A DNA stretch of 64,000 nucleotides from Alphaproteobacteria bacterium. GTDB lineage: Bacteria > Pseudomonadota > Alphaproteobacteria > SMXS01. The notes beneath the pieces were generated by a model. The model worked only from the letters and a program-made list of their open reading frames with translations, had not been told where the DNA came from and made no database searches. Positions within the stretch are counted from its first letter, which is position 1; each line of letters begins with the position of its first letter. Of the stretch, positions 5,243 through 62,609 are shown piece after piece. The DNA lies in contig WGNW01000063.1 of the NCBI GenBank assembly GCA_016124315.1, forward strand, positions 1 to 64,000, given 5' to 3'. The translations under genes and the position numbers were made by a program.

Positions 5243-5364
5243 GGCGGCATGATACTGCCGCCCGGGCGGCATCTCCAGAGCGCAGCCCCGGCGTTCGGCG
5301 CCACAAACCAGGGTTCGTCGGCCGCAGGCGTTGGGTGTAGGATGTTTCGCGAGCGTAGCGGCTC

Positions 5365-19233: not shown

Positions 19234-19523
19234 GTCACCACGTATTCGCAGGAATCGGATAGCATCAGTGATAACTGCTTTGCCCAAATCTTCAAGAAGA
19301 ATGTCCGCATAGCCGCCAGGTGACGGCGCGGAAACCCGACGATGTAAATACATTCTCGAGATCGCCGGCCAAGAAGGGCGTGACGATGAATAAAATCCCC
19401 TCATTCACCGCAAGCAAAACCCGTGATCGGAAAAGATCAATTGGCGGCCCTCGCGGCTCTTGCCGCAGGAAAGTCGCAATTTGAACATGCTTCCCACCGT
19501 CGGGAGACCGCTCCTCGGGCGGA

Positions 19524-39300: not shown

Positions 39301-39397
39301 GCGTCCTCCCTTCGCTGTGACTGGCACCATAGCCAGTGAGGCGGGCGAGGGACAGACGTTTGCTGGATGGAGCCGAAAGAACGCCCGGGCGGCAGGC

Positions 39398-40430: not shown

Positions 40431-40874
40431 ATGACCCAGAGCAACCCCATGACGGACGCGTTCGAGACCTGGAGCAAGAGCTTCACCCAGTTCACCGGCG
40501 CGGCCATCCCCGGCTTCAGCGTCGATTCGATGATGAAGACCGGCCAGGCCAACATCGCCGCCCTGACGGAGGCCAACCGCATCGCCATCGAGGGCCTGCA
40601 GGCCGTCGCCAAGCGCCAGCAGGAAATGGCCGCCGCGGCGATCAGCGATTTCCAGGAGACCGCCAAGACGATCGGCGCCGGCAAGGGCACCGAGATGTTC
40701 TCCAAGCCGGTCGAGATGGCCCGCGAAGCGTTCGAGAAGTCGGTCGCCAACATGAAGGAACTGGCCGAGCTGGCCGGCAAGTCCCAGACCGAGGCGTGGG
40801 GCGTCATCGGCCGCCGCTTCCAGGACAGCCTGTCGGAAGTCCAGGCCACGGCCAAGCCGGCCGCCAAGAAGTAA
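40431..40874 (+). CDS. phaP: Phasin family protein
   Basis: A 147-residue helical protein that coats polyhydroxyalkanoate granules. Pattern: MTDAFETWSKSFTQF at the N-terminus, FSVDSMMKTGQANIAALTEANRIAIEGLQAVAKRQQEM in the phasin_2-type coiled region (about 25-62), long alternating Ala/Glu/Lys helices, and an AATAKPAAKK-like basic end. AGGAGAG precedes the ATG at good distance. A promoter with a PhaR-type box is upstream. It is followed 34 bp later by the WS/DGAT gene, linking carbon storage as PHA with neutral-lipid storage. Confidence 0.93.
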   Translation: MTQSNPMTDAFETWSKSFTQFTGAAIPGFSVDSMMKTGQANIAALTEANRIAIEGLQAVAKRQQEMAAAAISDFQETAKTIGAGKGTEMFSKPVEMAREAFEKSVANMKELAELAGKSQTEAWGVIGRRFQDSLSEVQATAKPAAKK

Positions 40875-40908
40875 TCCGGACCGCGCTTCGCCCGGCACGG
40901 ACAAGTCC

Positions 40909-42369
40909 ATGGAGCAGTTGAGCCCGCTCGACGCCTCGTTCCTCTTCAGCGAGAACGAGCGGGTCGCCAACCATATCGGTGGACTGTACATCTACGACCA
41001 GTCCACCGTGCCGGGCGGTGCCCTGCGCTTCCGCCAGATCCTGCGGTATCTGGAAGCGCGCCTCCACAAGACCCCCCGTCTCCGGCAGAAGCTGGCGAGG
41101 GTGCCGCTGGACCTCGACTACCCCTACTGGGTGGACGATTCCCGCTTCGACATCGAATACCACGTGCGCCATCTGGCGCTGCCCAAGCCCGGCGACTGGC
41201 GCCAGCTCTGCATTCTCGCATCGCGCCTCCACGACCGGCCGCTCGACCTCCACCGCCCGCTGTGGGCGCTCTACGTGATCGAGGGCCTGGACAACGTCGA
41301 AGGGCTGCCGCCCGACAGCTTCGCCATCGTCACCAAGCTGCACCATGCGGCGCTCGACGGCGTGTCGGCCGTTTCGACGAATACCTCGCTGCACGAGACC
41401 GAGCCGGGACTGCGGATCGGCCAGGCGTTGCCGTGGACGCCCGAACCGGAGCCCAGCCCGCTCGACCTGCTGTTCCGCGCCCATCTGAACTATCTGGCGC
41501 AGCCGTTCCGCCTGCTCAACACACTGGCCGAATCCGTGCCCGCGCAGACCCGCTTCCTCGCGTCGTTCGGCGAGGAGAGCTTCACCTCGCCCCGGTCGGT
41601 CGCCGTGCCGCGCACCCGCTTCAACCGCGACACGTCGGGCCGCCGGGTGATCAACGGCATCTCCTACGACCTGCCCGCGCTGCGCCGGATCAAGGAGGCG
41701 CTGCCGGGCGCGACCGTGAACGACGTCATGCTGGCCCTGACCGGCGGCGCCCTGCGCCGCTACCTCAAGGCCAAGAACGACCTGCCGGACGAAGCGATGG
41801 TGGCGCTCGTGCCGGTCTCCGTCCGGTCGCCGGACGCCGAGGGCCCCACGGGCAACGAGGTCATCGCCATGCTCGCCTCGCTCGGCACCGACGAGGCCGA
41901 CCCGCGGCGCCGGCTCGAGGCCGTGCACACCTCGACCTTCAGCTCCAAGGCGCTGACCAACGCCATCGGCACCCGCCTGCTCACCGACTACCAGCAGTTC
42001 CTGCCGGCCGCGACCAGCGGCATGTTCTCGCGCTTCTTCGCCCAGATGCGCCAGGCGGGACCGGCGGCGCCCGCCTTCAACACGGTGCTCACCAACGTGC
42101 CGGGACCGCAGCACCCGCTGTTCTTCTGCGGCGCGCGGCTGGTCAACCAGTATGGCCTCGGCATGATCCAGGACGGCGTCGGCCTGTTCCACACGGTGTT
42201 CAGCTACGACGGCAAGCTCACGCTCACCGCCGTGTCCGACCGGGAGATGATGCCCGATCCCGAATTCTACATGAGCTGCTTCCGCGACTCCTTCGAGGAA
42301 TTGCGGGCGGCCACGCGGCCCGCGCCCCGGCCCCGCCCGAAGGCCGCGACGGCACCCGCCCGCGCCTGA
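40909..42369 (+). CDS. Wax ester synthase/diacylglycerol acyltransferase (WS/DGAT)
   Basis: A 486-residue bifunctional acyltransferase that forms wax esters or triacylglycerol from acyl-CoA. The N-terminus has LSPLDASFLF (4-13), the catalytic HHxxxDG motif is HHAALDG (145-151), followed by PLP-like motif region VNDVMLALTGGALRRYL (about 268-284) and the TNVPGPQHPLFFCGARL motif near 397. The C-terminal domain ends RPAPRPRPKAATAP, a disordered tail. It follows the phasin gene by 34 bp in the same direction. It is convergent with the MFS gene, with only 3 bp between the stops. Confidence 0.93.
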   Translation: MEQLSPLDASFLFSENERVANHIGGLYIYDQSTVPGGALRFRQILRYLEARLHKTPRLRQKLARVPLDLDYPYWVDDSRFDIEYHVRHLALPKPGDWRQLCILASRLHDRPLDLHRPLWALYVIEGLDNVEGLPPDSFAIVTKLHHAALDGVSAVSTNTSLHETEPGLRIGQALPWTPEPEPSPLDLLFRAHLNYLAQPFRLLNTLAESVPAQTRFLASFGEESFTSPRSVAVPRTRFNRDTSGRRVINGISYDLPALRRIKEALPGATVNDVMLALTGGALRRYLKAKNDLPDEAMVALVPVSVRSPDAEGPTGNEVIAMLASLGTDEADPRRRLEAVHTSTFSSKALTNAIGTRLLTDYQQFLPAATSGMFSRFFAQMRQAGPAAPAFNTVLTNVPGPQHPLFFCGARLVNQYGLGMIQDGVGLFHTVFSYDGKLTLTAVSDREMMPDPEFYMSCFRDSFEELRAATRPAPRPRPKAATAPARA

Positions 42370-43958: not shown

Positions 43959-46664
43959 CTAGAAGTAGACGCCGAACTCGACGCCATACTCGCGCGGACG
44001 GCCCCACATGGTGAAGTTCCACAGGCCGGCCACGGAGTTCGCGCCATAGCGGTAGCGCTCGTCCAGGATGTTCTTGACGTATCCGGTGACCCGGTAGCGC
44101 TCGTTCACGTCACGCCACGTCACGCTCGCGTCCCACAGGGTGCGGGCATTCTGCTGGGTGTAGATGGAGTTGAACACCGAGGTCTCGGACGTCGAGGTGT
44201 ACTGGACCGTGGTGTTCATGGTCAGCGTGCCCGAGTTGCCCAGCGCGGCGTCGTAGGTGATGCCGCCGCCCAGCTTCCACTTCGGCGAGTAGGGTACCCT
44301 CAGGTCCGACAGGTCCTGCCCGCCCAGCATGAACTCGATGTACTTGTGGTCCATATAGCCCAGGCTGAAGTCGAACCGCAGGTTGTCGATCGGCACCCAG
44401 GTCGCTTCCAGTTCGACGCCCACGTTGCGCGACTTGCCGGCGTTCACGTTGACCGTCTCCTGGGTGGTGACACCGAACGCGTTGGTGAACGGCACCACCT
44501 GGGAGCGGACCAGGTTGGAATAGCGGGTGTAGAACACCGAGAGGTTGGTCTGCAGGGTCTGGTCGAAGAACCGCGCCTTCAGGCCCGCCTCGGCGTTCCA
44601 GTTGGTCTCGGACTGGTAGCCCTGGCAGGTGGCCAGGCTGGAGCAGGTTTCGGTGAAGCCGCCGGGAATGAAGCCGGTCGAGTAGCTGGCATAGATCATG
44701 CCGTCCTCGAAGGCCCGGTAGTCCACCACGGCGCGCCACGTGAACTTGGTCCAATGGTTTTGGAACTCGTCGTGGATGCCGAAGGCGGACAGCGGCAGCG
44801 GCAGGTTGTAGGGATCCAGATCCTGGACCTGGAAGCCGTTGCCGACGCGCGAGACCGAGTTCGACTTGGCGTCGAGGCACACGCCGTTGACGGTCCGCTG
44901 GTCGATGAACGGCGTTTGTGCCGTGCAGGGCCCGCCCGGGTTGGCGCGGCGCAGGAACCGCTTCTGGTCGTAGGTGTAGCGGCCGCCGAGGGTGAGGCGC
45001 AGCTTGTCGGTGACGTCGAGATGCGCGTCGGCGTAGGCGGCGTAGGTGTTCCGCCACTGCTTGGCGCCGCCCATGGTGGGATCGTTGAAGTAGCTGTAGT
45101 CGAGATTGATGAAGCCGCGGTCGTCCAGGAACGGGTTGCCGTTGGCGGGATGCCCCAGCGCCGTGTCGGTCTGCGGCAGCAGGCCGGACAGGCCGACGGT
45201 GGCGTAGGAGATCATGTCGGTCTTGTCGTAAGCGTAGGACAGACCGGCGACGAAGTTGAAGGGGCCGTCGAAGGTGGTGGACGCCCGCAGCTCGATCTGG
45301 GCCTGGTGGCGACGGGTGTTGCGCGACGCATCGAACAACGAATTGAACGCCTCGCCCGTGTAGGTGTCGGGCAGGATTTCCGTCATGTGCCGGTAGGCGG
45401 TGATCAGCTTGAAGGTGACGGAGTCCAGCGTCAGCGTCTGCTGCAGGTTGTACATCTCGACGCCGACCCGGTGGCCCTTGGTCTGGCAGAACGCGCTGCC
45501 GCCGCCGGGGCACTGGTTGGTGGTGCCGGTGCTGTAGGGGTCATGCTCGCCATTGGTGTGGACGCCGTCGAAGCCGAGCAGCGGGAGCAGCATGGCGGTC
45601 GGCGCGTTGCGCACGAAGGTGCCGTCCGCGAGCCGCTGGATGCCGGGGTCGACCTGGCCGACGGCCGGGGATTCGTTGACGCCCGGCACCGCTTCCGAGC
45701 GGTCGCGCAGGAACTGGAAGATGAAGTACGCCTCGTACCTGTCGGTCGGGGTGAACAGCGCCTTGAAATTGGCCGCGAACGCGTCGGTGCCGTTGAGATG
45801 CTCGCCACCGCCGTGGTTGGTCGTGTTCAGTTCGGGCGGCAGGGGCGGATTGTTCACCGGCAGCCCGTAGGCGCCGTAGATCGGCACATAGTTCGGGAAG
45901 CCGCTGGCCGGCTTGTCGTTGCGGAAGTAGCCGTCGTCGTAGTCGTAGAGGGCGGTGATGCGGAACGCCAGCTTGTCCTGCACGATGGGCAGATTGAGCG
46001 CCATGCGCCCCTTGCCGATCACGCCGCCCTGCTTGTTGCCGAACTTGCCGATCTGGCCTTCGATGTCGGCGCTGAACTTGTTGATGATCGGCCGCTTGGT
46101 GACGATCGAGATGGCGCCGCCGGTGGCGCTCTTGCCGAACAGCGTGCCCTGCGGACCGCGGTAGACCTCGACCCGGTCGACGTCGAACAGCTCGACGAAC
46201 TGGGACTGCACGTTGGTCAGCGCGAACTCGTCGACCAGCAGCACCACCGAGCTGTCCTGGGTCACCAGGATCGAGTTCTGGCCGGTGCCGCGGATGCCGC
46301 CGGCCACGGCCCGGAAGCCGGGCAGCTGGCCGAGCTGCACGCCCGGAGACAGGTCGCTGACCGCCAGGATGTCGGTGCGGAAGGTGTTCTTCAGCTGATC
46401 GGCCGAGATCGCCGACAGCGAGATCGGCACGTCCTGCGCCAGTTCGTTGCGCTTGGTGCCGGTCACCGTCACCGTTTCCAGCTTGCCGACGGCGATACGG
46501 CCCTGCGGCAGCTTATCCATATCTTCTTGCGAGACCGAGGACGACGCCGTGGACGACGCCACCTGTGGCTCAACGGCAAAAGCCGCCCCCGCCGTGACGG
46601 CGGATGCGGCGAGCGCGATCGTAGCCGCGCCGAACTGGCGCGCCAGTATTGACTTGAGGTTCAT
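43959..46664 (-). CDS. TonB-dependent outer-membrane receptor 1
   Basis: A 901-residue outer-membrane receptor for TonB-driven uptake. Signal peptide about 1-30 (ending GAAFA). A TonB box-like ETVTVTGTK (about 63-71) precedes the plug domain (about 75-185, with SQFVELFDVDRVEVYRGPQG and LFGKSATGGAISIVTKRP). The 22-strand barrel occupies the rest and ends GVEFGVYF with terminal Phe. There is no STN signalling domain and no siderophore-specific signature, so the ligand is probably a hydrophobic organic compound. It shares most of its sequence with receptor 2 at 46928-49612. Confidence 0.92.
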   Translation of the reverse strand: MNLKSILARQFGAATIALAASAVTAGAAFAVEPQVASSTASSSVSQEDMDKLPQGRIAVGKLETVTVTGTKRNELAQDVPISLSAISADQLKNTFRTDILAVSDLSPGVQLGQLPGFRAVAGGIRGTGQNSILVTQDSSVVLLVDEFALTNVQSQFVELFDVDRVEVYRGPQGTLFGKSATGGAISIVTKRPIINKFSADIEGQIGKFGNKQGGVIGKGRMALNLPIVQDKLAFRITALYDYDDGYFRNDKPASGFPNYVPIYGAYGLPVNNPPLPPELNTTNHGGGEHLNGTDAFAANFKALFTPTDRYEAYFIFQFLRDRSEAVPGVNESPAVGQVDPGIQRLADGTFVRNAPTAMLLPLLGFDGVHTNGEHDPYSTGTTNQCPGGGSAFCQTKGHRVGVEMYNLQQTLTLDSVTFKLITAYRHMTEILPDTYTGEAFNSLFDASRNTRRHQAQIELRASTTFDGPFNFVAGLSYAYDKTDMISYATVGLSGLLPQTDTALGHPANGNPFLDDRGFINLDYSYFNDPTMGGAKQWRNTYAAYADAHLDVTDKLRLTLGGRYTYDQKRFLRRANPGGPCTAQTPFIDQRTVNGVCLDAKSNSVSRVGNGFQVQDLDPYNLPLPLSAFGIHDEFQNHWTKFTWRAVVDYRAFEDGMIYASYSTGFIPGGFTETCSSLATCQGYQSETNWNAEAGLKARFFDQTLQTNLSVFYTRYSNLVRSQVVPFTNAFGVTTQETVNVNAGKSRNVGVELEATWVPIDNLRFDFSLGYMDHKYIEFMLGGQDLSDLRVPYSPKWKLGGGITYDAALGNSGTLTMNTTVQYTSTSETSVFNSIYTQQNARTLWDASVTWRDVNERYRVTGYVKNILDERYRYGANSVAGLWNFTMWGRPREYGVEFGVYF

Positions 46665-46770: not shown

Positions 46771-46780
46771 TCAAGCGTGA
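46771..46780. promoter_or_regulatory. Shared near-palindromic operator candidate ahead of TonB receptor 1
   Basis: TCAAGCGTGA, preceded by an A-rich run and followed by TTGTTGG. It lies 107 bp upstream of the receptor 1 start. One of four related sites in this island. Confidence 0.45.
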
Positions 46781-46857: not shown

Positions 46858-46886
46858 AAAAAGGGCGGGCGCCGAAGCGCCCGCCC
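46858..46886 (-). terminator. Rho-independent terminator after TonB receptor 2
   Basis: On the minus strand: GGGCGGGCGC-TTCG-GCGCCCGCCC, a 10-bp stem, then five T residues. It starts 42 nt after the receptor stop and is a canonical intrinsic terminator. Confidence 0.85.
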
Positions 46887-46927: not shown

Positions 46928-49612
46928 CTAGAAGTAGACGCCGAACTCCATGCCGAACTCGCGCGGACGGCCCCACATGGTGAAGTTCCACAGACCCGCC
47001 ACCGAGTTGGCGCCGGTGCGATACCGCTGGTCCAGGATGTTCTTCACATAGGCCGTCACCCGGTAGCGCTCGTCCGCGTCGCGCCAGGTCAGGCTGGCGT
47101 CCCACAGGGTGCGGGCGCTGTACTGGGTGTAGAGCGAGTTGAACACCGAGGACTCGGACACCGACGTGTAGTTCACCGTGGTGTTCATGGTCAGCGTACC
47201 GCCATTGCCCAGCGAGGCGTCGTAGGTGATGCCGCCGCCCAGCTTCCAGTGCGGCGAGAACGGCACGGTCAGGTCCGACAGGTCCTGCCCGCCCAGCATG
47301 AACTCGATGTACTTATGGTCCATGTAGCCCATGTTGAAGTCGATGCGCAGGTCGTCGAGCGGCACCCACGTCGCCTCCAGCTCCACGCCGATGTTGCGCG
47401 ACTTGCCCGCATTCACGTTGATCGTCTCCTGGGTCGTCGTCCCGAACGCGTCGGTGAACGGAATGACCTGGGAGCGGACCAAGTTGGAATAGCGGGTGTA
47501 GTAGACCGAGAGGTTGGTCTGCAGGGTCTGGTCGAAGAACCGCGCCTTCAGGCCCGCCTCGGCGTTCCAGTTGGTCTCGGATTCGAAGGGCTGGCAGGTG
47601 GCCAGGCTCGAGCAGGTCTCGGTGAAGCCGCCCGGGATGAAGCCCGTCGAATAGCTGGCGTAGATCATGGCGTCCTCGACCACCTTGTAGTCGAGCACGG
47701 CGCGCCAGGTCAGCTTCGCCCAGTGATCGTGGAACGTGTCGGCGATGCCGAAGGCGCTGTCGGGCAGCGGAATATGGAACGGATCCAGGTCCGCCGCGGT
47801 GAAGCCGCTGCCGACGCGCGAGACCGCGTTCGACCGCTTGTCGAGGCAGGCGCCGTTCACCGTGACCTGGTCCCGGGCGGGCGTCAGGTCGGTGCAGGGG
47901 CCGCCCGGATTCTGCCGGCGGAAGAAGGTCTTCACGTCGTAGGTGTAGCGGCCGCCCAGGGTGAAGCGGAGCTTGTCGGTGATGTCGTAGTGACCGTCGA
48001 TGTAGATGGCGTAGGTGTTACGCTTCTGGCGCGCGCCGGTCATCGTCGGATCGTTGATGTAGTCCAGGTCGAGGTTCAGGAAGCCCCGGTCGTCCAGCAG
48101 GCCGGAGGCGACCAGCGGGTTCGAACTGTTCGGATCGACCGACGGCAGGAAGGTGATCAGGCTGGTGAGGCCGACCGTGGAATAGGCCAGCATGTCGGTC
48201 TTGTCGTAGGCGTAGGAGAGACCGGCGACGAAGTTGAACGGCCCGTCGAAGGTAGTGGTCGCCCGCAGCTCGATCTGGGCCTGCTTGCGCGTGGTGTTGC
48301 GCGACGCGTCGAACAGCGACGTGAACGCCTCGCCCGTGTAAGTGTCGGGCAGGATTTCCGTCATGTGCCGGTAGGCGGTGATCAGCTTGAACGCCACGTC
48401 GTCGTAGGTCAGCGTCTGCTGCAGGTTGTAGCCCTCGACGCTCACCCGGTGGCCCTTGGTCTGGCAGAAGGCGCCGCCGCCGAAGCACTGGTTGGTGGTG
48501 CCGGTGTTGTAGACGTCCTTCTGGCCGGTGGCCTCGACGCCGTCGAAGCCCAGCAGCGGCAGCAGCATGTAGGTCGGCGCGTTGCGCACGAAGGTGCCGT
48601 CCGAGAGGCGGGCGACGCCCGGGTCGACCTGGCCCAGCGCCGGCGATTCGTTGACGCCGGGAACGGCATCCGACCGGTCACGCAGGAAGTCGAAGATGAA
48701 GTAGGCCTCGTAGTGGTCGCTGGGCGTCAGCAGCGCCTTGAAGCGGCCCGAGAAGGAATCGGTGCCGTTGAGGTGCTCGCCGCCGCCCTGGCTGTTGGTG
48801 TTGAGCTCCGGCGGGAACGGCGGGTTGACCACCGGCAGGCCGTAGTTGGAGTAGATCGGCACGACGTTGGGGAAGTTGTTGGCCGCCTTGCCGTTGCGGA
48901 AGTAGCCGTCGTCGTAGTCGTAGATGGCGGTCAGGCGGAACGCCAGCTTGTCCTGGATGACGGGAATGTTGATGGCGAGGCGGCCTTTGCCGATCATGCC
49001 GCCATCCTTGTTGTCGAACTTGCCGATCTGGGCCTCGATGTCGGCGCTGAACTCGTTCAGCTTCGGCCGCTTGGTGATGATCGAGATGGCGCCGCCAGTG
49101 GCGCTCTTGCCGAACAGCGTGCCCTGCGGACCGCGATACACCTCGACCCGGTCGACGTCGAACAGCTCGACGAACTGGGACTGCACGTTGGTCAGCGCGA
49201 ACTCGTCGAGCAGCAGCACCACCGAGCTGTCCTGGGTCACCAGGATCGAGTTCTGGCCGGTGCCGCGGATGCCGCCGGCGACGGCGCGGAAGCCCGAGAC
49301 CTGGCCGAGCTGCACGCCCGGCGACAGCTCGCTGACCGCGAGGATGTCGGTGCGGAAGGTGTTCTTGAGCTGGTTGGCGGAGATCGCCGACAGCGAGATC
49401 GGCACGTCCTGCGCCAGCTCGTTCCGCTTGGTGCCGGTGACGGTCACCGATTCCAGGGTGCCCAGCATGGGCTTGCCGGCCGGCGTGGTCGCCTGGCTGG
49501 CCGCCGGGTGCTGCTGGGATGGGGCCGCGTCCTGCGCGGCGGCCTGGCCCGCCATGGCGGCCAGAGGCAATGCGATCGACGCGCAGAGCGCGCTACGCCA
49601 CTTCACAATCAT
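46928..49612 (-). CDS. TonB-dependent outer-membrane receptor 2 (paralogue of receptor 1)
   Basis: An 894-residue receptor with a signal peptide ending AAMAGQAAAQ (about 1-26), a low-complexity linker, TonB box-like ESVTVTGTK, a plug with VELFDVDRVEVYRGPQG and FGKSATGGAISIITKRP, and a 22-strand barrel ending GMEFGVYF. The plug and C-terminal third are almost identical to receptor 1, while loops at about 260-330 and 480-500 differ. This is the pattern expected if paralogues changed ligand preference. The pair is transcribed in the same direction with an intrinsic terminator between them. It is divergent from the P450 operon across 361 bp. Confidence 0.93.
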   Translation of the reverse strand: MIVKWRSALCASIALPLAAMAGQAAAQDAAPSQQHPAASQATTPAGKPMLGTLESVTVTGTKRNELAQDVPISLSAISANQLKNTFRTDILAVSELSPGVQLGQVSGFRAVAGGIRGTGQNSILVTQDSSVVLLLDEFALTNVQSQFVELFDVDRVEVYRGPQGTLFGKSATGGAISIITKRPKLNEFSADIEAQIGKFDNKDGGMIGKGRLAINIPVIQDKLAFRLTAIYDYDDGYFRNGKAANNFPNVVPIYSNYGLPVVNPPFPPELNTNSQGGGEHLNGTDSFSGRFKALLTPSDHYEAYFIFDFLRDRSDAVPGVNESPALGQVDPGVARLSDGTFVRNAPTYMLLPLLGFDGVEATGQKDVYNTGTTNQCFGGGAFCQTKGHRVSVEGYNLQQTLTYDDVAFKLITAYRHMTEILPDTYTGEAFTSLFDASRNTTRKQAQIELRATTTFDGPFNFVAGLSYAYDKTDMLAYSTVGLTSLITFLPSVDPNSSNPLVASGLLDDRGFLNLDLDYINDPTMTGARQKRNTYAIYIDGHYDITDKLRFTLGGRYTYDVKTFFRRQNPGGPCTDLTPARDQVTVNGACLDKRSNAVSRVGSGFTAADLDPFHIPLPDSAFGIADTFHDHWAKLTWRAVLDYKVVEDAMIYASYSTGFIPGGFTETCSSLATCQPFESETNWNAEAGLKARFFDQTLQTNLSVYYTRYSNLVRSQVIPFTDAFGTTTQETINVNAGKSRNIGVELEATWVPLDDLRIDFNMGYMDHKYIEFMLGGQDLSDLTVPFSPHWKLGGGITYDASLGNGGTLTMNTTVNYTSVSESSVFNSLYTQYSARTLWDASLTWRDADERYRVTAYVKNILDQRYRTGANSVAGLWNFTMWGRPREFGMEFGVYF

Positions 49613-49712
49613 GGGTGACTCCCCCTTGGTGTTTCCCCCTGGAGCCTTTGGAAGCTCCTTGGACGGCGGGAGGTTAAGCAGGAAAAAACCGGGGCGTCAT
49701 CTTAAAACGGTT

Positions 49713-49722
49713 CACGCGTGAC
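49713..49722. promoter_or_regulatory. Shared operator candidate ahead of TonB receptor 2 (perfect palindrome)
   Basis: TCACGCGTGA, a perfect 10-bp palindrome, preceded by AAAACGGT and followed by CTTTAGGG; 101 bp upstream of the receptor start. Confidence 0.5.
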
Positions 49723-49899
49723 TTTAGGGCCTAAGTTATTCTGGTGGTGTGACAATCCGGCAACACCATACAGGATGCTTTTTTAGGTGCGCCAGGCGCG
49801 GGTGTCCAGCGGGAATGGTTGGCGCTTCACCAGAGTGCCGGCGCGGCGCCTTCGGCCTTGACTCCCGCGGCGGCGTAGCTTCAAACTGCCGCAAAACAA

Positions 49900-49909
49900 T
49901 CATGCGTGA
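49900..49909. promoter_or_regulatory. Shared operator candidate ahead of the ABM/P450 operon
   Basis: TCATGCGTGA, preceded by AAAACAA and followed by AGGTTGAG; 64 bp upstream of the first gene of the operon. Confidence 0.48.
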
Positions 49910-49973: not shown

Positions 49974-50381
49974 ATGGCGACGTTGCTGGCCCATATCCGC
50001 ATCCGGCCGGGCAAGGAGGCGCGGTTCGAGGAACTGCAGGGCGCGCTGTGGCGCTCCACCCATGCCGACGAGCCGGGCTGCCGGCGCTACGAGTTCTTCC
50101 GCGGCGAGGCGGAGGGCAGCTACTACGGCCTGCTCTCCTTCGACGACTTCCAGGCGTTCCTGGTGCACCAGTCCAGCGATGCGCACGAGGATTTCGGCGC
50201 CGAATTCGCCGACGTGGTGAGCGACATCCGTATCGAATGGATCGATCCGGTGCAGGGCGCCTCGGCGCTGGCGCCGACCGCGCCGCAGGAGGCGCCGGAA
50301 GGCGCCGGGGACCTGATGAAGGAATACAGCAAGACATACGCGGTCCGCATGGCGGACTGGTGGCACGCGCTCAGGACCTAG
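49974..50381 (+). CDS. ABM-domain (antibiotic biosynthesis monooxygenase-like) protein 1
   Basis: A 135-residue ferredoxin-like dimeric alpha/beta protein. Pattern: ATLLAHIRIRPGKEARFEEL, CRRYEFFRGEAEGSYYGLLSFDDFQAFLVHQSS and SDIRIEWIDPVQGASAL, then a C-terminal MKEYSKTYAVRMADWWHAL tail absent from minimal ABM domains. Some ABM proteins are cofactor-free monooxygenases, others bind heme or act as isomerases. It starts the seven-gene plus-strand operon and is followed 13 bp later by a paralogue. Confidence 0.8.
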   Translation: MATLLAHIRIRPGKEARFEELQGALWRSTHADEPGCRRYEFFRGEAEGSYYGLLSFDDFQAFLVHQSSDAHEDFGAEFADVVSDIRIEWIDPVQGASALAPTAPQEAPEGAGDLMKEYSKTYAVRMADWWHALRT

Positions 50382-50394
50382 GGAGACGCACGGC

Positions 50395-50793
50395 ATGGCG
50401 ACCATTCTCGCCCACATCAAGGTGTTCGACGGCAAGGAAGCCGAGTTCGAGAAGACGGTGAAGCCGCTCTGGGAAGCGACGCACCGGCTCGAGCCCCATT
50501 GCCGCCGCTACGAATATTTCCGCGGCGAGAAACCGGGTCACTACTACTGCCTGCTGTCGTTCGACGACTTCCGGTCGTTCATGGTCCACCAGACCAGCGA
50601 CCATCACGAGGCGCCCGACTTCCCCTCCTTCCTGGAGGTCATCCGGCTCGAGTGGCTCGACCCGGTCCAGGGCGCCTCGGAGCTGGTGCCGACCGAGCCG
50701 CAGGACGTCCCGGACGACGCCAGCGAGCTGATGAAGCGCTATTCGAAGGACCACGCCGTGGCCATGCAGGACTGGTGGAAACGCCTGCGCTGA
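50395..50793 (+). CDS. ABM-domain protein 2 (tandem paralogue)
   Basis: A 132-residue homologue of the preceding gene with the same layout: ATILAHIKVFDGKEAEFEK, CRRYEYFRGEKPGHYYCLLSFDDFRSFMVHQTSDH, EVIRLEWLDPVQGASELVPTEPQD, and the tail MKRYSKDHAVAMQDWWKRL. GGAGA lies 9 nt before the ATG. It contains histidines (HH at about 67-68) not present in copy 1. The pair may form a heterodimer. It is followed 27 bp later by the P450. Confidence 0.8.
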   Translation: MATILAHIKVFDGKEAEFEKTVKPLWEATHRLEPHCRRYEYFRGEKPGHYYCLLSFDDFRSFMVHQTSDHHEAPDFPSFLEVIRLEWLDPVQGASELVPTEPQDVPDDASELMKRYSKDHAVAMQDWWKRLR

Positions 50794-50820
50794 CCAAGGC
50801 CGGAGACTTGTGAGGACGCC

Positions 50821-52059
50821 ATGAACGAGGAAAAACTCGATATCCGCCTGCTCGACCCGGCCAGCGTCGAGTGCCCCTACCACGACTACCAGCGGCTCCG
50901 CGAGGAAGCGCCGGTCTACCGCATGCCCGAGACCGGCTGGTACGTGGTCACCACCTACGATCTGTGCCGCAAGGTGGCCAAGGACTGGGAGACCTTCTCC
51001 GACCAGCTCAACGACTGGTCCCACGAGACGCTGTGGAGCAATTCGGAGATTCCCGGCCTGTTCGAGAAGGACGGCTGGCCCCGAGACCAGATTCTGTCGC
51101 GCGACCCGCCGCTGCACGACATGTATCGCAGCCTGGTGGACGTCTCGTTCACCAAGAGCCGCATCGACGCCATGGAGCCGTTCATCACCAAGCTGGTGAA
51201 CGAGCTGATCGACAAGTTCATCGACAAGGGCGAGTGCGACTTCATCATGGATTTCGCCTATCCCCTGCCCATGCACGTCATCGCCGACCGGCTCGGCCTG
51301 CCGCCCGAGGACCTGCCCAGGCTGAAGTTCTGGTCGGAGGAGTGGGTGCTGCCCCACGCCCACACCATGAGCCACGAGCGCGAGGTGGAGTGCGCCCGCA
51401 ACATCATCGACCTGCAGCACTACCTGGTGGAGAAGTTCGAGGAGAAGCGCCAGCACCGGGACGACCGCATCATCAGCGACCTGGTGCACGGCCTGTTCAA
51501 CGGCGAGCGCCACCTCAACACCCGCGAGATCCTGTCGATGGTGGAGCAGCTGCTGGTGGGCGGCAACGAGACCACCACCAACGCCATGTCCTCGGGCATG
51601 ATGCTGCTGATCCAGAACCCCGACGAGTACCGCAAGGTCCAGGACGATCCCAAGCTGATCAAGAACTTCGTCGAGGAGGTGCTGCGCATCGAGAGCCCGA
51701 CCCAGGGCATCTTCCGCGTCGCGGTCAAGGACACCGAGCTCGGCGGCGTGAAGATCCCGCGCGGCTCGATGATCAACATGCGCTTCGGCTCGGCCAACCG
51801 GGACGAGAAGGTGTTCCCCGACGCCGGCCGGCTCGACGTGTGCCGCAAGAACGCCGGCGCGCACCTGGCGTTCAGCACCGCCGAGCATCACTGCGTCGGC
51901 GCGCCGCTCACCCGGCAGGAGATGAACATCGCCTTCCGCATCCTGTTCGAGCGGATGAAGAACTTCCAGTTCGCGCCCGACCGGAACGACTTCCAGCACG
52001 CGGGCAACTTCATGGTGCGGGCGCTCAAGCACCTGCACATCACCTTCGAAAAGCGCTGA
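50821..52059 (+). CDS. Cytochrome P450, class I, soluble (copy 1)
   Basis: A 412-residue bacterial P450. The I-helix has GGNETTTN (E251-T252), the ExxR is E286-x-x-R289 in EEVLRIESP, and the heme thiolate Cys is C358 in FSTAEHHCVGAPLTRQE. The usual FGxGxHxCxG is FSTAEHHCVG here, so the two Gly residues before the His are replaced by S and A/E. The N-terminus reads SVECPYHDYQRLREEAPVY, typical of CYP-family proteins that act on terpenoids or steroids. Electrons would come from a ferredoxin and reductase, which are not encoded in this window. It is the third gene of the operon and is followed 5 bp later by an MDR reductase. Confidence 0.93.
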   Translation: MNEEKLDIRLLDPASVECPYHDYQRLREEAPVYRMPETGWYVVTTYDLCRKVAKDWETFSDQLNDWSHETLWSNSEIPGLFEKDGWPRDQILSRDPPLHDMYRSLVDVSFTKSRIDAMEPFITKLVNELIDKFIDKGECDFIMDFAYPLPMHVIADRLGLPPEDLPRLKFWSEEWVLPHAHTMSHEREVECARNIIDLQHYLVEKFEEKRQHRDDRIISDLVHGLFNGERHLNTREILSMVEQLLVGGNETTTNAMSSGMMLLIQNPDEYRKVQDDPKLIKNFVEEVLRIESPTQGIFRVAVKDTELGGVKIPRGSMINMRFGSANRDEKVFPDAGRLDVCRKNAGAHLAFSTAEHHCVGAPLTRQEMNIAFRILFERMKNFQFAPDRNDFQHAGNFMVRALKHLHITFEKR

Positions 52060-52064
52060 CCGGC

Positions 52065-53096
52065 ATGCCGACACTCCCCAACGAACGTCGCAACAACCAG
52101 CTCTACATGGCCCGCTTCCCCAGCGGCGAGGCCGGACCCGGCGACTTCGAGGTGCGCGAGGCGCCGGTGCCCGAGCCCAAGGACGGCGAGGTCCTGGTGG
52201 AGACCCACTACCTGTCGGTGGACGCGGCGCTCCGGCTGATCATGCGCGACAGCAAGGACTTCCTGTTCCGAGTCCAGCCGGGCGACCTGGTGCGCGGCTC
52301 GGTGGCCGGGCGCATCGTCGAATCCCGCAACCCGGATTTCCGCGAGGGCGACTACGTCACCGGCGGGCTCGGCGTGCAGAACTACGCCGTGTCCGACGGC
52401 ACGGGCCTCGCCAAGGTCGACACCGCGACCGCGCCGCTGTCCGCCTGGCTGGGCGGCATGGGCGTCTCGGGCCTCACCGCCTACTTCGCGGTGACCGAGG
52501 AGTGCAAGCCGGCGCCGGGCAAGACGCTGGTGGTGAACGGCGCCGCCGGCGCCGTCGGCTCCATCGCCGGGCAGATCGGCCGCATCCTCGGCGCGCGGGT
52601 GATCGGCATCACCGGCAGCGACGAGAAGTGCCGCTGGCTGACGGAGGAACTGGGCTACGACGTCGCCATCAACTATCGCAACGGCGACCTCTACGAGCGG
52701 CTGGTCGAAGCCGCGCCCGACCGCATCGACGCCATCTTCGACAATGTGGGCGGACCGATCCTCGACGAGAGCCTGCGCTGGATCGGCCTGCGCGGGGTGG
52801 TGCTGCTGTGCGGCTCCACCTCCCAGTATACCGAGGAGAAGATGGCCGGCCCCGCCAACTATATCTGGCTGGGCACCATGCGCGCCCGGATGCAGGGCTT
52901 CGTTGTCTACGATTACGCCGACCGCTTCGCCGAGGCCCAGAAGCAGCTCGCCCAGTGGGTGCGCGAGGGCAAGCTGGTGATGCGCGAGAACGTGGTGGAA
53001 GGCGACGTCGGCGACTTCCCCGACGTCTTCCGCCGTCTCTATCACGGCGAGAACCGCGGCAAGATGGTGATCCGCCTGCCGGCGGCCGCCGACTAG
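52065..53096 (+). CDS. NADP-dependent oxidoreductase, zinc-free MDR, copy 3 (P450 operon)
   Basis: A 343-residue member of the same family as the two genes at 37239-39300, but more divergent (LPNERRNNQLYMARFPSG at the N-terminus). Nucleotide-binding region: GVSGLTAYFAVTEECKPAPGKTLVVNGAAGAVGS (about 129-165 with interruptions), then GSDEKCRWLTEELG and DAIFDNVGGPILDE. C-terminal HGENRGKMVIRLPAAAD. The start at ATG 52065 is 5 nt after the P450 stop. It likely reduces an enone formed after hydroxylation and dehydrogenation. Confidence 0.9.
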   Translation: MPTLPNERRNNQLYMARFPSGEAGPGDFEVREAPVPEPKDGEVLVETHYLSVDAALRLIMRDSKDFLFRVQPGDLVRGSVAGRIVESRNPDFREGDYVTGGLGVQNYAVSDGTGLAKVDTATAPLSAWLGGMGVSGLTAYFAVTEECKPAPGKTLVVNGAAGAVGSIAGQIGRILGARVIGITGSDEKCRWLTEELGYDVAINYRNGDLYERLVEAAPDRIDAIFDNVGGPILDESLRWIGLRGVVLLCGSTSQYTEEKMAGPANYIWLGTMRARMQGFVVYDYADRFAEAQKQLAQWVREGKLVMRENVVEGDVGDFPDVFRRLYHGENRGKMVIRLPAAAD

Positions 53097-53132
53097 AAAA
53101 CAACCTCAGGGAACCAGGAAAGGAACAACGGG

Positions 53133-53912
53133 ATGGGTGCTCTCGATCTCTTCAAGCTGGACGGCAAGGTGGCCGTCGTGACCGGCGCCGGCAAAGGCAT
53201 CGGCCGCGGCATCGCGCTGACGCTGGCCGAGGCCGGCGCGGACGTGGCCGTCGCCTCGCGCAGCAAGGACGACCTGGAAAAGGTGGCGCAGGAAATCCGC
53301 GACCGCGGCCGGCGCGCCATCGCCGTGCCGACGGACGTCACCAAGATGGAATTCCTGGAGAACCTGGCGAAGCGGACGCAGGACGAGCTGGGCAAGATCG
53401 ACATCTGGGTGAACAACGCCGGCGGCCTGCCCGACGGCACGCCGCGCTGGCTGACCCGCACGTCGGAGGAGCAGTTCGAGGCGCAGATCGACCTCAACCT
53501 CAAGGCGGTATGGGCCGGCTGCGTGGTCGCCGCCAAGGCGATGGCGGAGAACGGCGGCGCCATCGTCAACATCTCGTCGCGGGCCGCCAAGGACATGGGC
53601 CCGAACCTGAAGAACGGCCCCTACGGCGCCTCCAAGTCGGCGGTGAACAGCCTGACCGCCACCTTCTCGCGCGAACTGGCCCCGAAGATCCGCATCAACG
53701 CGGTGGCGCCGGGCCCGATCCCGACCGAGAACTTCATCGACTCCATGAAGATGCACACCAAGGAGCGCGAGGAGGAGCTGAGGCAGTACATCGCGCTGCC
53801 GCTGCAGCGCTGGGGCACCCCCGAGGACATCGGCGCCGCCGTGCTCTACATGGTCTCGCCGGCGTCGGGCTGGGTGACCGGCCAGTGCCTCTACGTCACC
53901 GGCGGCTCCTGA
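53133..53912 (+). CDS. Short-chain dehydrogenase/reductase (SDR)
   Basis: A 259-residue classical SDR that oxidises or reduces an alcohol/ketone using NAD(P). It has the TGAGKGIG cofactor motif (17-24), NNAGG near 94-98, active-site S in NISSRAA (about 147) and Y164-x-x-x-K168, and the end VTGQCLYVTGGS. AAAGGAAC precedes the ATG at 11-18 nt. The position between the MDR and iron-ADH genes suggests it handles the P450 hydroxylation product. Classical SDR residues are intact. Confidence 0.93.
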   Translation: MGALDLFKLDGKVAVVTGAGKGIGRGIALTLAEAGADVAVASRSKDDLEKVAQEIRDRGRRAIAVPTDVTKMEFLENLAKRTQDELGKIDIWVNNAGGLPDGTPRWLTRTSEEQFEAQIDLNLKAVWAGCVVAAKAMAENGGAIVNISSRAAKDMGPNLKNGPYGASKSAVNSLTATFSRELAPKIRINAVAPGPIPTENFIDSMKMHTKEREEELRQYIALPLQRWGTPEDIGAAVLYMVSPASGWVTGQCLYVTGGS

Positions 53913-53919
53913 TCCGGGA

Positions 53920-55086
53920 ATGCCGGCGGGCGTCTACGACTACATCCCGCAGGAGCGCATCGTCTTCGGCCGCCCGGCGGCCGAGGCGATCCGCGCGGAA
54001 GCGGAGCGGCTGGGCAAGACCCGGCTGTTCCTCGTCACCGCCAAATCGCTGAACCGCAAGACGCCGGCCATCGGCGAGCTGCGGGCGGCGCTGGGCCGCC
54101 TGGTGGTCGGGCTCTATGACGACTGCATCGCCCACACGCCGCGCGAGACGGTGGTCGCCTGCGCCGAGGCGGTGCGCCAGGCCGGCGCCGACATGATCGT
54201 CACCATCGGCGGCGGCACCGCCATCGACATGGTGAAGGCGGTGCAGATCTGCCTGGCCGAGGACGTGCGCACGGTCGAGGGCCTCGACGACTGGCACACC
54301 CGGGTCAACCCGGACGGCAGCTACCACACGCCGCGGACGAAACCCTCGCCGGTGCGCCAGATCATCGTGCCGACCACCCTGTCGGGCGCCGAGTTCAGCA
54401 CCATCGCCGGCGTCACCGACACCCGGACCCACGTGAAGGAAGGCTATGTGGGCACCGACGCGGCCGGCCAGGCGGTGATCCTCGACGCGGCGATCACCGT
54501 CCACACGCCCGAATGGCTGTGGCTGTCGACCGGCGTGCGCGGCCTCGACCACGCCGTCGAGGGCATCTGCTCGATCCGCGCCAATCCGTTCATCACCGGC
54601 TGCTGCCGGCAGGCCATCGAGATGTTCGCCGCCGCCCTGCCCCGCACCAAGGCCGACCCGCAGGATCTCGACGCCCGCCTCGCCTGCCAGCAGGCCACCT
54701 GGATCGCCGGCCACGGCATCGACCGCGCCCCCTACGGCGCCTCCCACGGCATCGGCGGCGTGCTGGGCGGCCTCAAGGACGTGCCGCACGGCTACACCTC
54801 GTGCATCCTGCTGCCCCACGTGCTGCGCTGGAACCGGCCGGCGACCGAGGCCCAGCAGCGCTACGTGTCCGCCGCCTTCGGACATCCCGACGCCGACGCC
54901 GCAGACCTGGTGGCGGACTTCGTCGGCCGCCTCGGACTGCCGCAGCGGCTGCGCGACGTGGGCGTGAGCCGCGACGACTTCCCCGCCATCGCCAGGCGGT
55001 GCCGCAAGAACATGTGGGTGCTGACGAATCCCCGTCCGCTGCCCGACGACGACGCCATCATGGCCCTGCTCGAGGCCGCCTACTGA
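53920..55086 (+). CDS. Iron-containing alcohol dehydrogenase family protein
   Basis: A 388-residue group III metal-type alcohol dehydrogenase, closest in pattern to maleylacetate reductase/1,3-diol dehydrogenases. It has the N-terminal Rossmann-like half with TIGGGTAIDMVKAV (92-105), the sequence VPTTLSGAEFSTIAGVTD, then metal-site region histidines in GLDHAVEG, ASHGIGG and VPHGYTSC. The gap to the SDR stop is 7 bp, showing translational coupling. It probably oxidises a second alcohol or reduces an aldehyde in the same pathway. NAD(H) or NADP(H) preference is not evident. Confidence 0.88.
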   Translation: MPAGVYDYIPQERIVFGRPAAEAIRAEAERLGKTRLFLVTAKSLNRKTPAIGELRAALGRLVVGLYDDCIAHTPRETVVACAEAVRQAGADMIVTIGGGTAIDMVKAVQICLAEDVRTVEGLDDWHTRVNPDGSYHTPRTKPSPVRQIIVPTTLSGAEFSTIAGVTDTRTHVKEGYVGTDAAGQAVILDAAITVHTPEWLWLSTGVRGLDHAVEGICSIRANPFITGCCRQAIEMFAAALPRTKADPQDLDARLACQQATWIAGHGIDRAPYGASHGIGGVLGGLKDVPHGYTSCILLPHVLRWNRPATEAQQRYVSAAFGHPDADAADLVADFVGRLGLPQRLRDVGVSRDDFPAIARRCRKNMWVLTNPRPLPDDDAIMALLEAAY

Positions 55087-55139
55087 CCCGGGTTCGTCGG
55101 TGGCGCGCCCGCGCCGCCGGCCCAGCAACGGAACGCATC

Positions 55140-56711
55140 ATGCTCACGCAGTTCGAACGGGAAGCCAACCTCTCCGACCTCATGGACTACCACGCCCGCA
55201 CCCGGCCGGAGGCGGAGATGCTGGTGTTCGAGAGCCGGCGCTGGACCTGGGGCGAGGGCGACCGCATCGTCAACCGGATCGCCCACGGCCTGATCGGCCT
55301 GGGCGTCGGGCGCAACGACAAGGTGGCGGTCCTGGCCGCCACGTCGCCGGAATACTTCTTCACCTTCTGGGGCATCATCCGCGCCGGCGCCTGCGCGGTG
55401 CCGCTGTCGGGCATGGCGAGCGCCGAATCCCTGGAGCTGATGATCGCCGACAGCGGCGCCAAGGTGCTGTTCGCCTCGGAAAAGACCATGGACCTGATCG
55501 GCCGCATCGACGCGCGCCTCGACGGCATCGTCACCGGCGGGCGCATCGCCTACGACTTCGCCGCGCCCGGCTGGCGCCGCTTCGACGACTGGATCGCCGC
55601 CGAGCCCGACACCAACCCCGGCGTCGCCATCGACCCGCTGGACGACTTCAACATCATCTACTCGTCGGGCACCACCGGCGTGCCCAAGGGCATCCTGCAC
55701 GACCACCGGACGCGCATCTCCTACTGGGCGACCCGCGACGCCTTCGCCTACGGGCCGGACACGCGGCTGATCGTCTCCACCCCGCTCTATTCCAACACCA
55801 CCCTGTTCGCGCTGCTGCCGGCGCTCGCCTGGGGCGGCGCGACCATCCTGCTGCCCCGGTCGGACACGGAGAACTTCCTGCGCCTCGCCGAGCGCGAGCG
55901 GGCGACCCACACCATGCAGGTGCCGGTGCAGTACCACCGGCTGCACGACTTCCCCGACTTCGGCGGGTACGACCTGTCCAGCTTCAAGTGGAAGTTCTGC
56001 ACCTCGGCGCCGCTGCGGCCGGCCTTCAAGACCTGGCTGATCACCGCCTGGCCGGGCGGCTTCACCGAGATCTACGGCATGACCGAGGGCGGCGTCGGCT
56101 GCTTCCTCAACGCCCACGAATATCCGGACAAGGTGCATACCGTCGGCTTCGCCCGCGAGGGCAGCGAGTTGCGGGTGGTGGACGAGGCGATGAACGAGGT
56201 GCCGCGCGGCGAGATCGGGGAGCTGATCGGCTGGTCCGCCTACATGATGACCGGCTACTACAACAAGCCCGACAAGACCACCGAAAGCCGCTGGACCGAC
56301 AAGGAGGGCCGCGTCTGGCAGCGCAGCGGCGACATGGGGCGGATGGACGAGGACGGCTTCATCGTGCTGCTCGACCGAGCCAAGGACATGATCATCTCGG
56401 GCGGCTTCAACATCTACGCCGCCGACCTGGAGGCTGAGCTGCTGAAGCACCCGGCGGTGGACGACGCGGCGGTGATCGCCGTGCCCAGCGAGGACTGGGG
56501 CGAGACGCCGCTCGGCCTGGTGGTGTTGAAGCCCGGCGCCTCGGCCAGCGGCGACGACATCCGCGGCTGGGCCAACGAGCGGCTGGGCAAGCTGCAGCGG
56601 CTGAGCGCCGTCGAGCTCCGCGACACCCTGCCCCGCAGCACCATCGGCAAGCTGCTCAAGCGCGAGCTGCGCGAACCCTACTGGGCCGGCATGGAACGCC
56701 GGGTGGGATAA
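55140..56711 (+). CDS. AMP-dependent acyl-CoA synthetase/ligase
   Basis: A 523-residue ANL-superfamily enzyme that activates a carboxylic acid to its CoA thioester via an acyl-AMP. Motifs: P-loop YSSGTTGVPKG (174-184), YGMTEGG (about 311-317), TGYYNKPDKTTE, SGDMGRMDEDGF, DRAKDMIISGGFNIY, and the C-terminal catalytic lysine K504 in PRSTIGKLLKRELRE. ATG 55140 follows the iron-ADH stop by 53 bp. It ends the plus-strand operon, so the final product of the pathway is expected to be a CoA thioester for beta-oxidation. Confidence 0.92.
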   Translation: MLTQFEREANLSDLMDYHARTRPEAEMLVFESRRWTWGEGDRIVNRIAHGLIGLGVGRNDKVAVLAATSPEYFFTFWGIIRAGACAVPLSGMASAESLELMIADSGAKVLFASEKTMDLIGRIDARLDGIVTGGRIAYDFAAPGWRRFDDWIAAEPDTNPGVAIDPLDDFNIIYSSGTTGVPKGILHDHRTRISYWATRDAFAYGPDTRLIVSTPLYSNTTLFALLPALAWGGATILLPRSDTENFLRLAERERATHTMQVPVQYHRLHDFPDFGGYDLSSFKWKFCTSAPLRPAFKTWLITAWPGGFTEIYGMTEGGVGCFLNAHEYPDKVHTVGFAREGSELRVVDEAMNEVPRGEIGELIGWSAYMMTGYYNKPDKTTESRWTDKEGRVWQRSGDMGRMDEDGFIVLLDRAKDMIISGGFNIYAADLEAELLKHPAVDDAAVIAVPSEDWGETPLGLVVLKPGASASGDDIRGWANERLGKLQRLSAVELRDTLPRSTIGKLLKRELREPYWAGMERRVG

Positions 56712-61346: not shown

Positions 61347-62609
61347 ATGAGCACCACGCTGCAGCAGCCCGACGACCTGAACTTCTTCGACGCCGACACC
61401 CAGGATTGCCCGTACGACGCCTACAAGGTGCTCCGCGAGGAGGCGCCGGTGTGGCGCGACCCGGTCACCGGCTTCTACTACATCACCCGCTACGACGACC
61501 TGCGGCAGGTGCTGCTGGACACCGAGCACTTCAGCAACGAGCGGCCCAAGGTCGCCCGGGACACCGAACGCGCCGAGCGGATGAAGAAGCTCTACGAGGA
61601 GAAGGGCTGGCTGCCGTCGCCGACGCTGGCCGGCCGCGACGATCCCAACCACAAGCAGATGCGCGCCATGTTCGACAACGCCTTCCGGGCGGGGAAGATC
61701 AAGGGCATGGACCCGCTGGTCGAGGAGACCGCCTACAAGCTGATCGACGGCTTCCTTGACGACGGCCACTGCGACTGGGTCAAGCAGTTCGCCGTGCCGC
61801 TGCCGCTGATCATCATCGGCAAGCAGATGGGCGCGAAGGAAGAGGACATCTGGCGCATCAAGGCCTGGACCGACGCCTGGGTGCAGCGACTCGGCATGAT
61901 GCAGACCGAGGACGAGGAGCGCTGGTCGGTCGAGATGGAGATCGAGGCGCAGCACTACTTCCAGCCGATCTTCGAGCGGCTGCGCAAGCAGCCCGACGGC
62001 TCGCTGCTGTCCGACCTGGTGAACACGGTGATCCCGGAATGGGGCCGCCCGCTCAACAACAACGAGCTGCACGCCGAGATGATGGCCGATACCTTCGTCG
62101 GCGGCTCCGAGACCTCCACCAACGCGCTGTCCGCCGGCATGATGCTGGCGATCCAGAACCCGGATGTGTGGGACCGGCTGAAGCAGGGCAACGACAAGGA
62201 CCTGCGCACCTTCGCCGAGGAGGTGCTGCGGCTGGAAAGCCCGGTGCAGAGCCTGTTCCGCATCGCCGCCAAGGACATCGAGCTGCACGGCGTCACGATT
62301 CCGGCGGGCTCGATGATCAACACCCGCTACGCCTCGGCCAACCGCGACGAGGGCCATTTCGAGTGCCCGGAGAAGCTGGACCTGGACCGCAAGAACGCCG
62401 GCAGCCACCTGGCCTTCGGCTCGGGCATCCATCACTGCCTGGGCGCGCCGCTGGCCCGCCGCGAGCTCTACTGGGGCTTCAAGGCCATGGTCGACCGGTT
62501 CGACGAGATCCGCTTCGCCGAGGGCAGGAACGACTTCCGCCACGCGCCCAATTTCTGCCTGCGCGCGCTGAAGGAGCTGCACATCGAATTCACCCCGGCG
62601 AAGCGCTGA
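61347..62609 (+). CDS. Cytochrome P450, class I, soluble (copy 2)
   Basis: A 420-residue P450 related to copy 1 but with a canonical heme loop. I-helix GGSETSTN (E255-T256), E292-x-x-R295 in EEVLRLESP, and thiolate C364 in FGSGIHHCLGAPLARRE. The N-terminus contains DCPYDAYKVLREEAPVW. GGGGAG precedes the ATG. It is divergent from marR, sharing the operator region, and is followed 2 bp after the stop by a lactonase-like gene. The substrate is unknown; the context favours a hydrophobic terpenoid-like or cyclic compound. Confidence 0.94.
   Translation: MSTTLQQPDDLNFFDADTQDCPYDAYKVLREEAPVWRDPVTGFYYITRYDDLRQVLLDTEHFSNERPKVARDTERAERMKKLYEEKGWLPSPTLAGRDDPNHKQMRAMFDNAFRAGKIKGMDPLVEETAYKLIDGFLDDGHCDWVKQFAVPLPLIIIGKQMGAKEEDIWRIKAWTDAWVQRLGMMQTEDEERWSVEMEIEAQHYFQPIFERLRKQPDGSLLSDLVNTVIPEWGRPLNNNELHAEMMADTFVGGSETSTNALSAGMMLAIQNPDVWDRLKQGNDKDLRTFAEEVLRLESPVQSLFRIAAKDIELHGVTIPAGSMINTRYASANRDEGHFECPEKLDLDRKNAGSHLAFGSGIHHCLGAPLARRELYWGFKAMVDRFDEIRFAEGRNDFRHAPNFCLRALKELHIEFTPAKR

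Follow-up and report, generated by a model that had tools for sequence, protein, structure and literature searches.

A conserved P450 operon with paired, tailed ABM proteins shares a palindrome with TonB-dependent receptor genes in an alphaproteobacterial genus

What is the role of an operon that combines a cytochrome P450 with two small ABM-domain proteins, several dehydrogenases and an acyl-CoA ligase, and that lies divergent from TonB-dependent receptor (TBDR) genes? Such an arrangement was found in contig C19 (WGNW01000063.1) of an alphaproteobacterial genome (GCA_016124315.1; 3.95 Mb, 112 contigs, 84% complete), whose positions 1 to 64,000, hereafter the window, were analyzed. The reading that we favor, with reasonable though far from complete confidence, is that this operon is part of a regulon, controlled by a repressor, for the uptake and oxidation of a hydrophobic organic substrate. 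Inspection of the open reading frames (ORFs) confirmed seven of them at 49974-56711, every one on the + strand and separated from the next by 13, 27, 5, 36, 7 and 53 bp, respectively, with the Pfam families ABM, ABM, P450, ADH_N_2/ADH_zinc_N, adh_short, Fe-ADH and AMP-binding in this order (Table 1); the G+C content at third codon positions was 0.91-0.97 in all seven genes. The medium-chain dehydrogenase/reductase (MDR) gene lacks its own entry in the ORF list because it sits inside a longer open frame, and its start at 52065 is our choice. These data bore out the coordinates, families and 5-53 bp gaps given in a preliminary description of this DNA, and the neighbors named there were also located, i.e. 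two divergent TonB receptors, a DAPDH-like protein, an EmrAB-type pump and an SGL-family lactonase-like ORF.

The synteny comparison proposed in that description revealed that the seven-gene order is conserved in the genus, which has seven members in the kinship lists used here (the family comprises three genera). Orthologs of the P450 with 88-90% identity are present in five of the six other members, and in all five the order ABM1-ABM2-P450-MDR-short-chain dehydrogenase/reductase (SDR)-iron-containing alcohol dehydrogenase (Fe-ADH)-ligase is kept at 70-90% identity, so that the arrangement is not due to chance. No P450 ortholog was found in the sixth genome, G005, which is itself just 78% complete. 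An additional P450 (47% identity) is inserted between ABM2 and the P450 in G003, a TonB receptor gene lies divergent and upstream of the operon in all five other loci, and of the five loci retrieved, three (L039, L041 and L042) have DAPDH, EmrAB and MarR genes downstream. Since the gene caller, based on amino acid composition, skipped the MDR and ligase genes in the window, an absent neighbor at other loci is weak evidence.

The start of the operon is conserved as well. In all six genomes (for the window, as taken from the printed sequence), a TTGACT-N18-C[AC][AC]ACT element is followed 11-12 bp on by TCANGNNTGA; a stricter generic promoter scan did not return this promoter. The core of the palindrome is TCANGCNTGA in four of the six genomes and the one-base variant TCACGTATGA in the other two (L039 and L041). 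Within the window, TCANGCNTGA occurs three times (46771, 49712 and 49900), solely upstream of TBDR1, TBDR2 and ABM1 and at no more than 624 bp from them, and its mean counts in Markov shuffles of the two upstream stretches were 0.0006 and 0.004. A looser 12-mer with one mismatch allowed gave 4 matches versus 1.1 expected, three of them being the TCANGCNTGA sites. This shared palindrome linking the receptors and the operon is new in this analysis. Taken together, the short gaps, the kept gene order and one conserved promoter and operator back the single transcription unit suggested earlier, and they strongly support that the seven genes constitute one operon with a shared palindrome.

Table 1. 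Features of the window discussed in the text
Feature	Position	Strand	Evidence or remark
Squalene-hopene cyclase	34064-36130	-	adjoins ferrochelatase
TBDR1, TonB-dependent receptor	43959-46664	-	PF00593+PF07715; TIGR01783 136.2 bits
Palindrome TCAAGCGTGA upstream of TBDR1	46771-46780	.	motif search
Terminator-like hairpin and T-run just beyond TBDR2 end	46863-46886	-	hairpin scan
TBDR2, TonB-dependent receptor	46928-49612	-	PF00593+PF07715; TIGR01783 150.9 bits
Palindrome TCACGCGTGA upstream of TBDR2	49712-49721	.	motif search
Promoter-like TTGACT-N18-CAAACT	49858-49887	+	equal layout in 6/6 genomes
Palindrome TCATGCGTGA, 12 bp past operon -10-like hexamer	49900-49909	.	motif search
ABM1, ABM domain and WW tail	49974-50381	+	PF03992 1.1e-12; AlphaFold2 (AF2) fold
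ABM2, ABM1 paralogue	50395-50793	+	PF03992 2.1e-10; 60% identity to ABM1
Cytochrome P450, haem motif FSTAEHHCVG (6/6 orthologs)	50821-52059	+	PF00067 4.7e-27
MDR, enone/alkenal reductase-like	52065-53096	+	PF16884/PF00107; CurA-like 290.5 bits; PDB 4b7c 3.5e-96
Classical SDR	53133-53912	+	PF13561/PF00106
Fe-ADH superfamily protein, maleylacetate-reductase-like, metal Asp -> Arg	53920-55086	+	PF00465/PF25137
Acyl-CoA ligase	55140-56711	+	PF00501/PF13193

The receptors might point to an iron-scavenging locus, in which siderophore uptake would be their task and the presence of the redox genes incidental, and the top NCBIfam model of both receptors is indeed a siderophore receptor family (TIGR01783, TonB siderophore receptor). 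However, TBDR1 (136.2 bits) and TBDR2 (150.9 bits) missed the cut-off of this model (223.5), no Fur-type box with up to three mismatches was found within the window, and the palindrome that the receptors and the catabolic genes have in common, TCANGCNTGA, is a different one. Judging from these sequences, iron control of the locus is unlikely, and we give very little credence to siderophore uptake as its function.

A search for ANTCANGCNTGANT in the seven genomes of the genus yielded 41 sites versus 2 for the reversed-pattern control. At 21 of the 41 sites the start of a TonB receptor, SnoaL, P450 or P450-like gene is no more than 600 bp away; six sites have an aldo-keto reductase gene on one side and a band-7 gene on the other, five are located at AMP-ligase-like genes (four of them overlapping the start codon) and two by an RND adaptor. 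In a non-circular tally that used the window genes as queries, the sites positioned before receptors or ABM1 were 3 of 3 in the window, 3 of 3 in L042, 2 of 3 in L040 and 2 of 3 in L043. A similar association was observed in gammaproteobacteria, for which seven genomes were reached via a P450 homolog and then searched for the tailed ABM proteins described below. Five of them, all gammaproteobacterial (Pseudomonadales), harbor a tailed ABM, which was not found in the other two (Myxococcota and Novosphingobium); among 321 sampled Gammaproteobacteria it was present in one, the centre genome itself. At four of the five gammaproteobacterial loci (L092, L093, L095 and L096), the gene of an ABM 69-70% identical to ABM2 diverges from receptor genes whose products show 53-60% identity to TBDR1/2, and L094 contains an ABM without receptor. 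The palindrome precedes receptor or ABM genes in L092 and L096, and P450 genes in L092, L093 and L049. This recurrence of the palindrome ahead of receptor, P450 and SnoaL-like genes, in the genus and in gammaproteobacteria, suggests that the uptake and oxidation genes probably form one regulon. The common operator and the recurring receptor-ABM divergence thus back the operon-receptor link that had been proposed from the window.

Some individual sites deserve mention. The exact WTCAYGCRTGAW sequence occurs at four sites in the own genome, one of which is upstream of a SnoaL_4 gene on contig C73, and two of which were put down to chance, being located inside the CheB coding sequence and between convergent genes. 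In L136 a SnoaL_4-type protein gene (5128-5679) is divergent from a TonB receptor gene with the palindrome between them, and its product is 36% identical to the SnoaL protein beside the ABM pair in L076. L137:10319-17533 and L140 revealed four tandem P450-like genes and a Rieske oxygenase gene under two palindromes in genome G000, with a similar set in G003, and L092 and L093 likewise carry a P450-like pair.

The enzymes of the operon were considered as indicators of its chemistry. Cytochromes P450 usually display the haem signature FxxGxxxCxG, of which variants are known. The operon P450 passed the PF00067 cut-off at 95.3 bits and keeps the haem cysteine (HHCVG, six orthologs), with Ala at the usual Gly position in all six; the inserted second P450 of L043 reads FSQGIHHC. 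Its best PDB relative was CYP125MRCA, which we take from its name to be the CYP125 ancestor, with macrolide hydroxylases close behind, and no substrate can therefore be deduced from such mixed relatives. Its relatives in the plasmid collection were all less than 60% identical, and two of them had no informative gene context. The MDR is akin to the CurA/prostaglandin reductase type (290.5 bits against NF058644, curcumin reductase), and differs from CurA in falling under the equivalog cut-off of 440; by sequence it is a relative of double-bond reductases. The ligase scored 243.5 bits against the steroid-24-oyl-CoA synthetase model CasG (NF052580), missing its cut-off of 750, and remained beneath every curated cut-off among the models listed.

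The Fe-ADH-like protein, to which alcohol/aldehyde oxidation had been ascribed, turned out to resemble maleylacetate reductases, its best PDB relatives being 3w5s and 3hl0 together with 3jzd. In the D-x3-H motif of FucO-type enzymes, the Asp serves as a metal ligand of Fe-ADH proteins. This first metal-ligand Asp, present in the aligned 9ldl, is replaced by Arg in the window protein and in its five orthologs, and an R-x-x-D-H motif is common to MAR1 (9ph0) and the operon protein. The likeness to maleylacetate reductases and the lost metal ligand suggest that the protein is likelier to reduce an enol or a keto group than to oxidize an alcohol, which does not favor the earlier assignment. Nevertheless, known maleylacetate reductases are distant from this protein, and the operon is devoid of ring-cleavage genes. 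Relatives of the Fe-ADH-like protein encoded on plasmids of Azospirillum and Cupriavidus have mixed gene contexts and offered no hint of a substrate; one Cupriavidus copy adjoins an AMP-binding gene. Nor can the order of steps originally envisaged (hydroxylation, ketone formation, C=C reduction, oxidation and CoA activation) be deduced from the evidence.

The ABM proteins are the most distinctive component of the operon. Both exceeded the PF03992 cut-off of 23.1 bits (48.3 for ABM1 and 41.1 for ABM2), and the domain spans residues 1-74 of 135 and 1-73 of 132, respectively, leaving a conserved tail outside. Proteins of the ABM family typically consist of one domain without extension, which is not a requirement, so ABM1 and ABM2, with their C-terminal extension, are not plain single-domain members. 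The tail has about 40 residues, and the WW near the C-terminus, already noted in the preliminary description, is invariant in 22 of 22 aligned subfamily members; H65, Q66, H71, E72, E88, W89, Y118, W129 and W130 are invariant in 17 aligned members. The ABM1 sequences form one clade (support 99/100) apart from the tandem ABM pair of G057/G181, a separate duplication (support 100/98), and the pair therefore arose at least twice. The AF2 model (8 sequences; pLDDT 72.9) consists of a ferredoxin-like domain and, at the C-terminus, a helix (113-134) predicted with low confidence. Foldseek and VIA matched it to known ABM enzymes, nearly all over residues 1-97 alone, and 3bm7 was matched over residues 1-94 when PDB sequences were searched with a profile. 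LsrG, YgiN, SnoaB, PA3566 and Rv0793 are like ABM1/2 in their predicted fold, with VIA Z values of 13-15 across residues 1-97, but their identity is 15-22% and nothing in them aligns to the tail. Tailed ABM genes were present in 11 of 289 genomes of the class (one a partial match over 3-102) and in one of 398 genomes of the other-Pseudomonadota sample, which is the own genome; ABM1 and ABM2 had no match in the plasmid collection, and an ABM profile scan of IMG/VR found nothing. All these comparisons indicate that the tailed ABM proteins are a defined and rare subfamily.

The foremost rival to an enzymatic role for these proteins is that they have no enzymatic activity of their own but are obligate partners that present the substrate to the P450 or tune electron transfer, in the way that the P450 EthB depends on EthD. 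EthD is expected to share the general barrel fold of ABM proteins. Tailed ABM genes adjoin or neighbor P450 genes in the window, in L081 (P450 and Rieske oxygenase) and in L082 (P450s), five of the seven genomes reached via the P450 contain them, and the tail stays invariant while the remainder varies. On the other hand, PF03992 is the sole Pfam match of ABM1 and ABM2, which are not EthD-family members, no P450 was found near the tailed ABM in L079 (next to a DUF4345 gene) and L080, those of L076-L078 are beside genes for SnoaL_4, pyrroloquinoline quinone enzymes and MAPEG, and at least 24 P450 places were counted in the genome versus three tailed ABM genes. The precedent itself comes from Rhodococcus B2, in which EthABD was active and EthABC inactive (PMC7934444). 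We regard such a partner role as rather unlikely here. A bolder proposal, which we consider unlikely, is that tailed ABM proteins, duplicated into pairs on separate occasions in two lineages, represent a novel type of partner acting directly with P450s when water-insoluble compounds supplied through TonB receptors are oxidized. The WW tail would then serve for docking or as a lid, and TCANGCNTGA would mark an entire P450-receptor regulon common to alpha- and gammaproteobacteria.

Beyond the gene order, conservation, protein families and common palindrome observed here, we infer repression, the direction of each redox step, the hydrophobic substrate and the ABM function, and the favored uptake-and-oxidation regulon would work as follows. 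TBDR1 and TBDR2, perhaps with further receptors, would carry the substrate through the outer membrane, and the P450 would hydroxylate it. Acting on the P450 product, the two tailed ABM proteins would most likely function as an isomerase or oxygenase that needs no cofactor. The SDR and the Fe-ADH-like protein would convert groups of the alcohol, ketone or enol type into one another, reduction of an activated C=C would be the task of the MDR, and a CoA thioester made by the ligase would enter β-oxidation-type breakdown. Control would lie with a repressor, probably a TetR-type protein, which would bind TCANGCNTGA just past the promoter and before the receptors, and would release it once the substrate or a product is present. 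Catabolism of a hydrophobic compound is likely, and this part of the preliminary description agrees with the evidence; a named substrate such as a terpenoid or steroid-like compound cannot be deduced.

Several observations weigh against this proposal. Seven of the 41 ANTCANGCNTGANT sites have no matched gene (one is by an aldehyde dehydrogenase ORF and one by an acyl-CoA dehydrogenase ORF), and some of the queries of the 41-site tally were genes that adjoin sites in G000 and G003, which raises its match rate and renders the tally circular for those loci. The four sites at ligase start codons may be conserved coding sequence. In the non-circular tally L039 gave 0/1 and L041 no site before receptors or ABM1; the core of their operon sites deviates, and an exact TCANGCNTGA before the receptor is lacking. 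No site was found in L095 and L094, and the gammaproteobacterial genomes, picked through the P450, may be close kin and hence not five independent events. No relative with a characterized substrate was found for the operon, and Pfam revealed no ferredoxin or reductase gene among its seven genes. Finally, a TetR gene (L092:10468-11232) adjoins a gammaproteobacterial ABM and has homologs in 10/10 genomes of the family, several of them divergent from a P450 with a palindrome in the intervening stretch; it was rejected as the regulator and kept as a lead only, the palindrome upstream of the alphaproteobacterial homologs, AAAGTC-N6-GACTTT, being just partly alike.

A further alternative is that the operon makes or tailors a metabolite, e.g. 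the cell's own hopanoid or another lipid, instead of degrading an imported compound. Members of the ABM and P450 families often take part in biosynthesis, an EmrAB-type exporter is located downstream, and the window encodes a squalene-hopene cyclase (Table 1). Against this, the palindrome of the operon also fronts the divergent TonB receptors, and breakdown is suggested by the acyl-CoA ligase within the operon and by the acyl-CoA and aldehyde dehydrogenases near palindromes elsewhere, the sites there being less certain. On balance we find a biosynthetic role quite improbable. Beside the cyclase gene are those of ferrochelatase (36172-37206) and two MDR reductases (37239-38255 and 38284-39588), and storage-lipid genes, phasin followed by wax ester synthase/DGAT (40431-42369, +), lie close to the island. 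The window also encodes an ice-binding-like adhesive domain protein (18148-19404, -), a 1046-residue autotransporter (27470-30610, -) and a second P450, P450b (61347-62609, +). In L052, of the same family, a P450b homolog (74%) is found together with a ligase (64%), a DAPDH-like protein (64%) and an SDR (52%), and DAPDH and P450b may therefore act in a common pathway.

The palindrome thus offers a route from sequence to substrate, since its sites indicate the P450s, receptors and small barrel proteins that go together and, in a genome so rich in P450s, tie some of them to outer-membrane receptors. Literature searches found no tailed-ABM/P450/TonB operon, which is no proof of its absence in print. 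Two known systems come closest. In the EthRABCD P450 system for ethyl tert-butyl ether and chloroacetanilide dealkylation, a P450 operon also encodes a small protein, which was shown there to be indispensable for activity (PMC7934444). That system encodes a ferredoxin and a reductase together with the P450, whereas none is among the seven genes here, where the small proteins are paired, tailed ABM proteins and the downstream genes extend to a CoA ligase. In Sphingobium SHPJ-2, where PheR controls phenanthrene uptake and catabolism, loss of this repressor raises expression of the catabolic operon and of TonB receptors (PMC13273656), a precedent for the coupled control of receptors and catabolism proposed here. 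PheR is an IclR-type regulator with another site, the pathway begins from phnA1, unlike the present operon, and a P450-ABM operon does not appear in the part of that account consulted here (PMC13273656).

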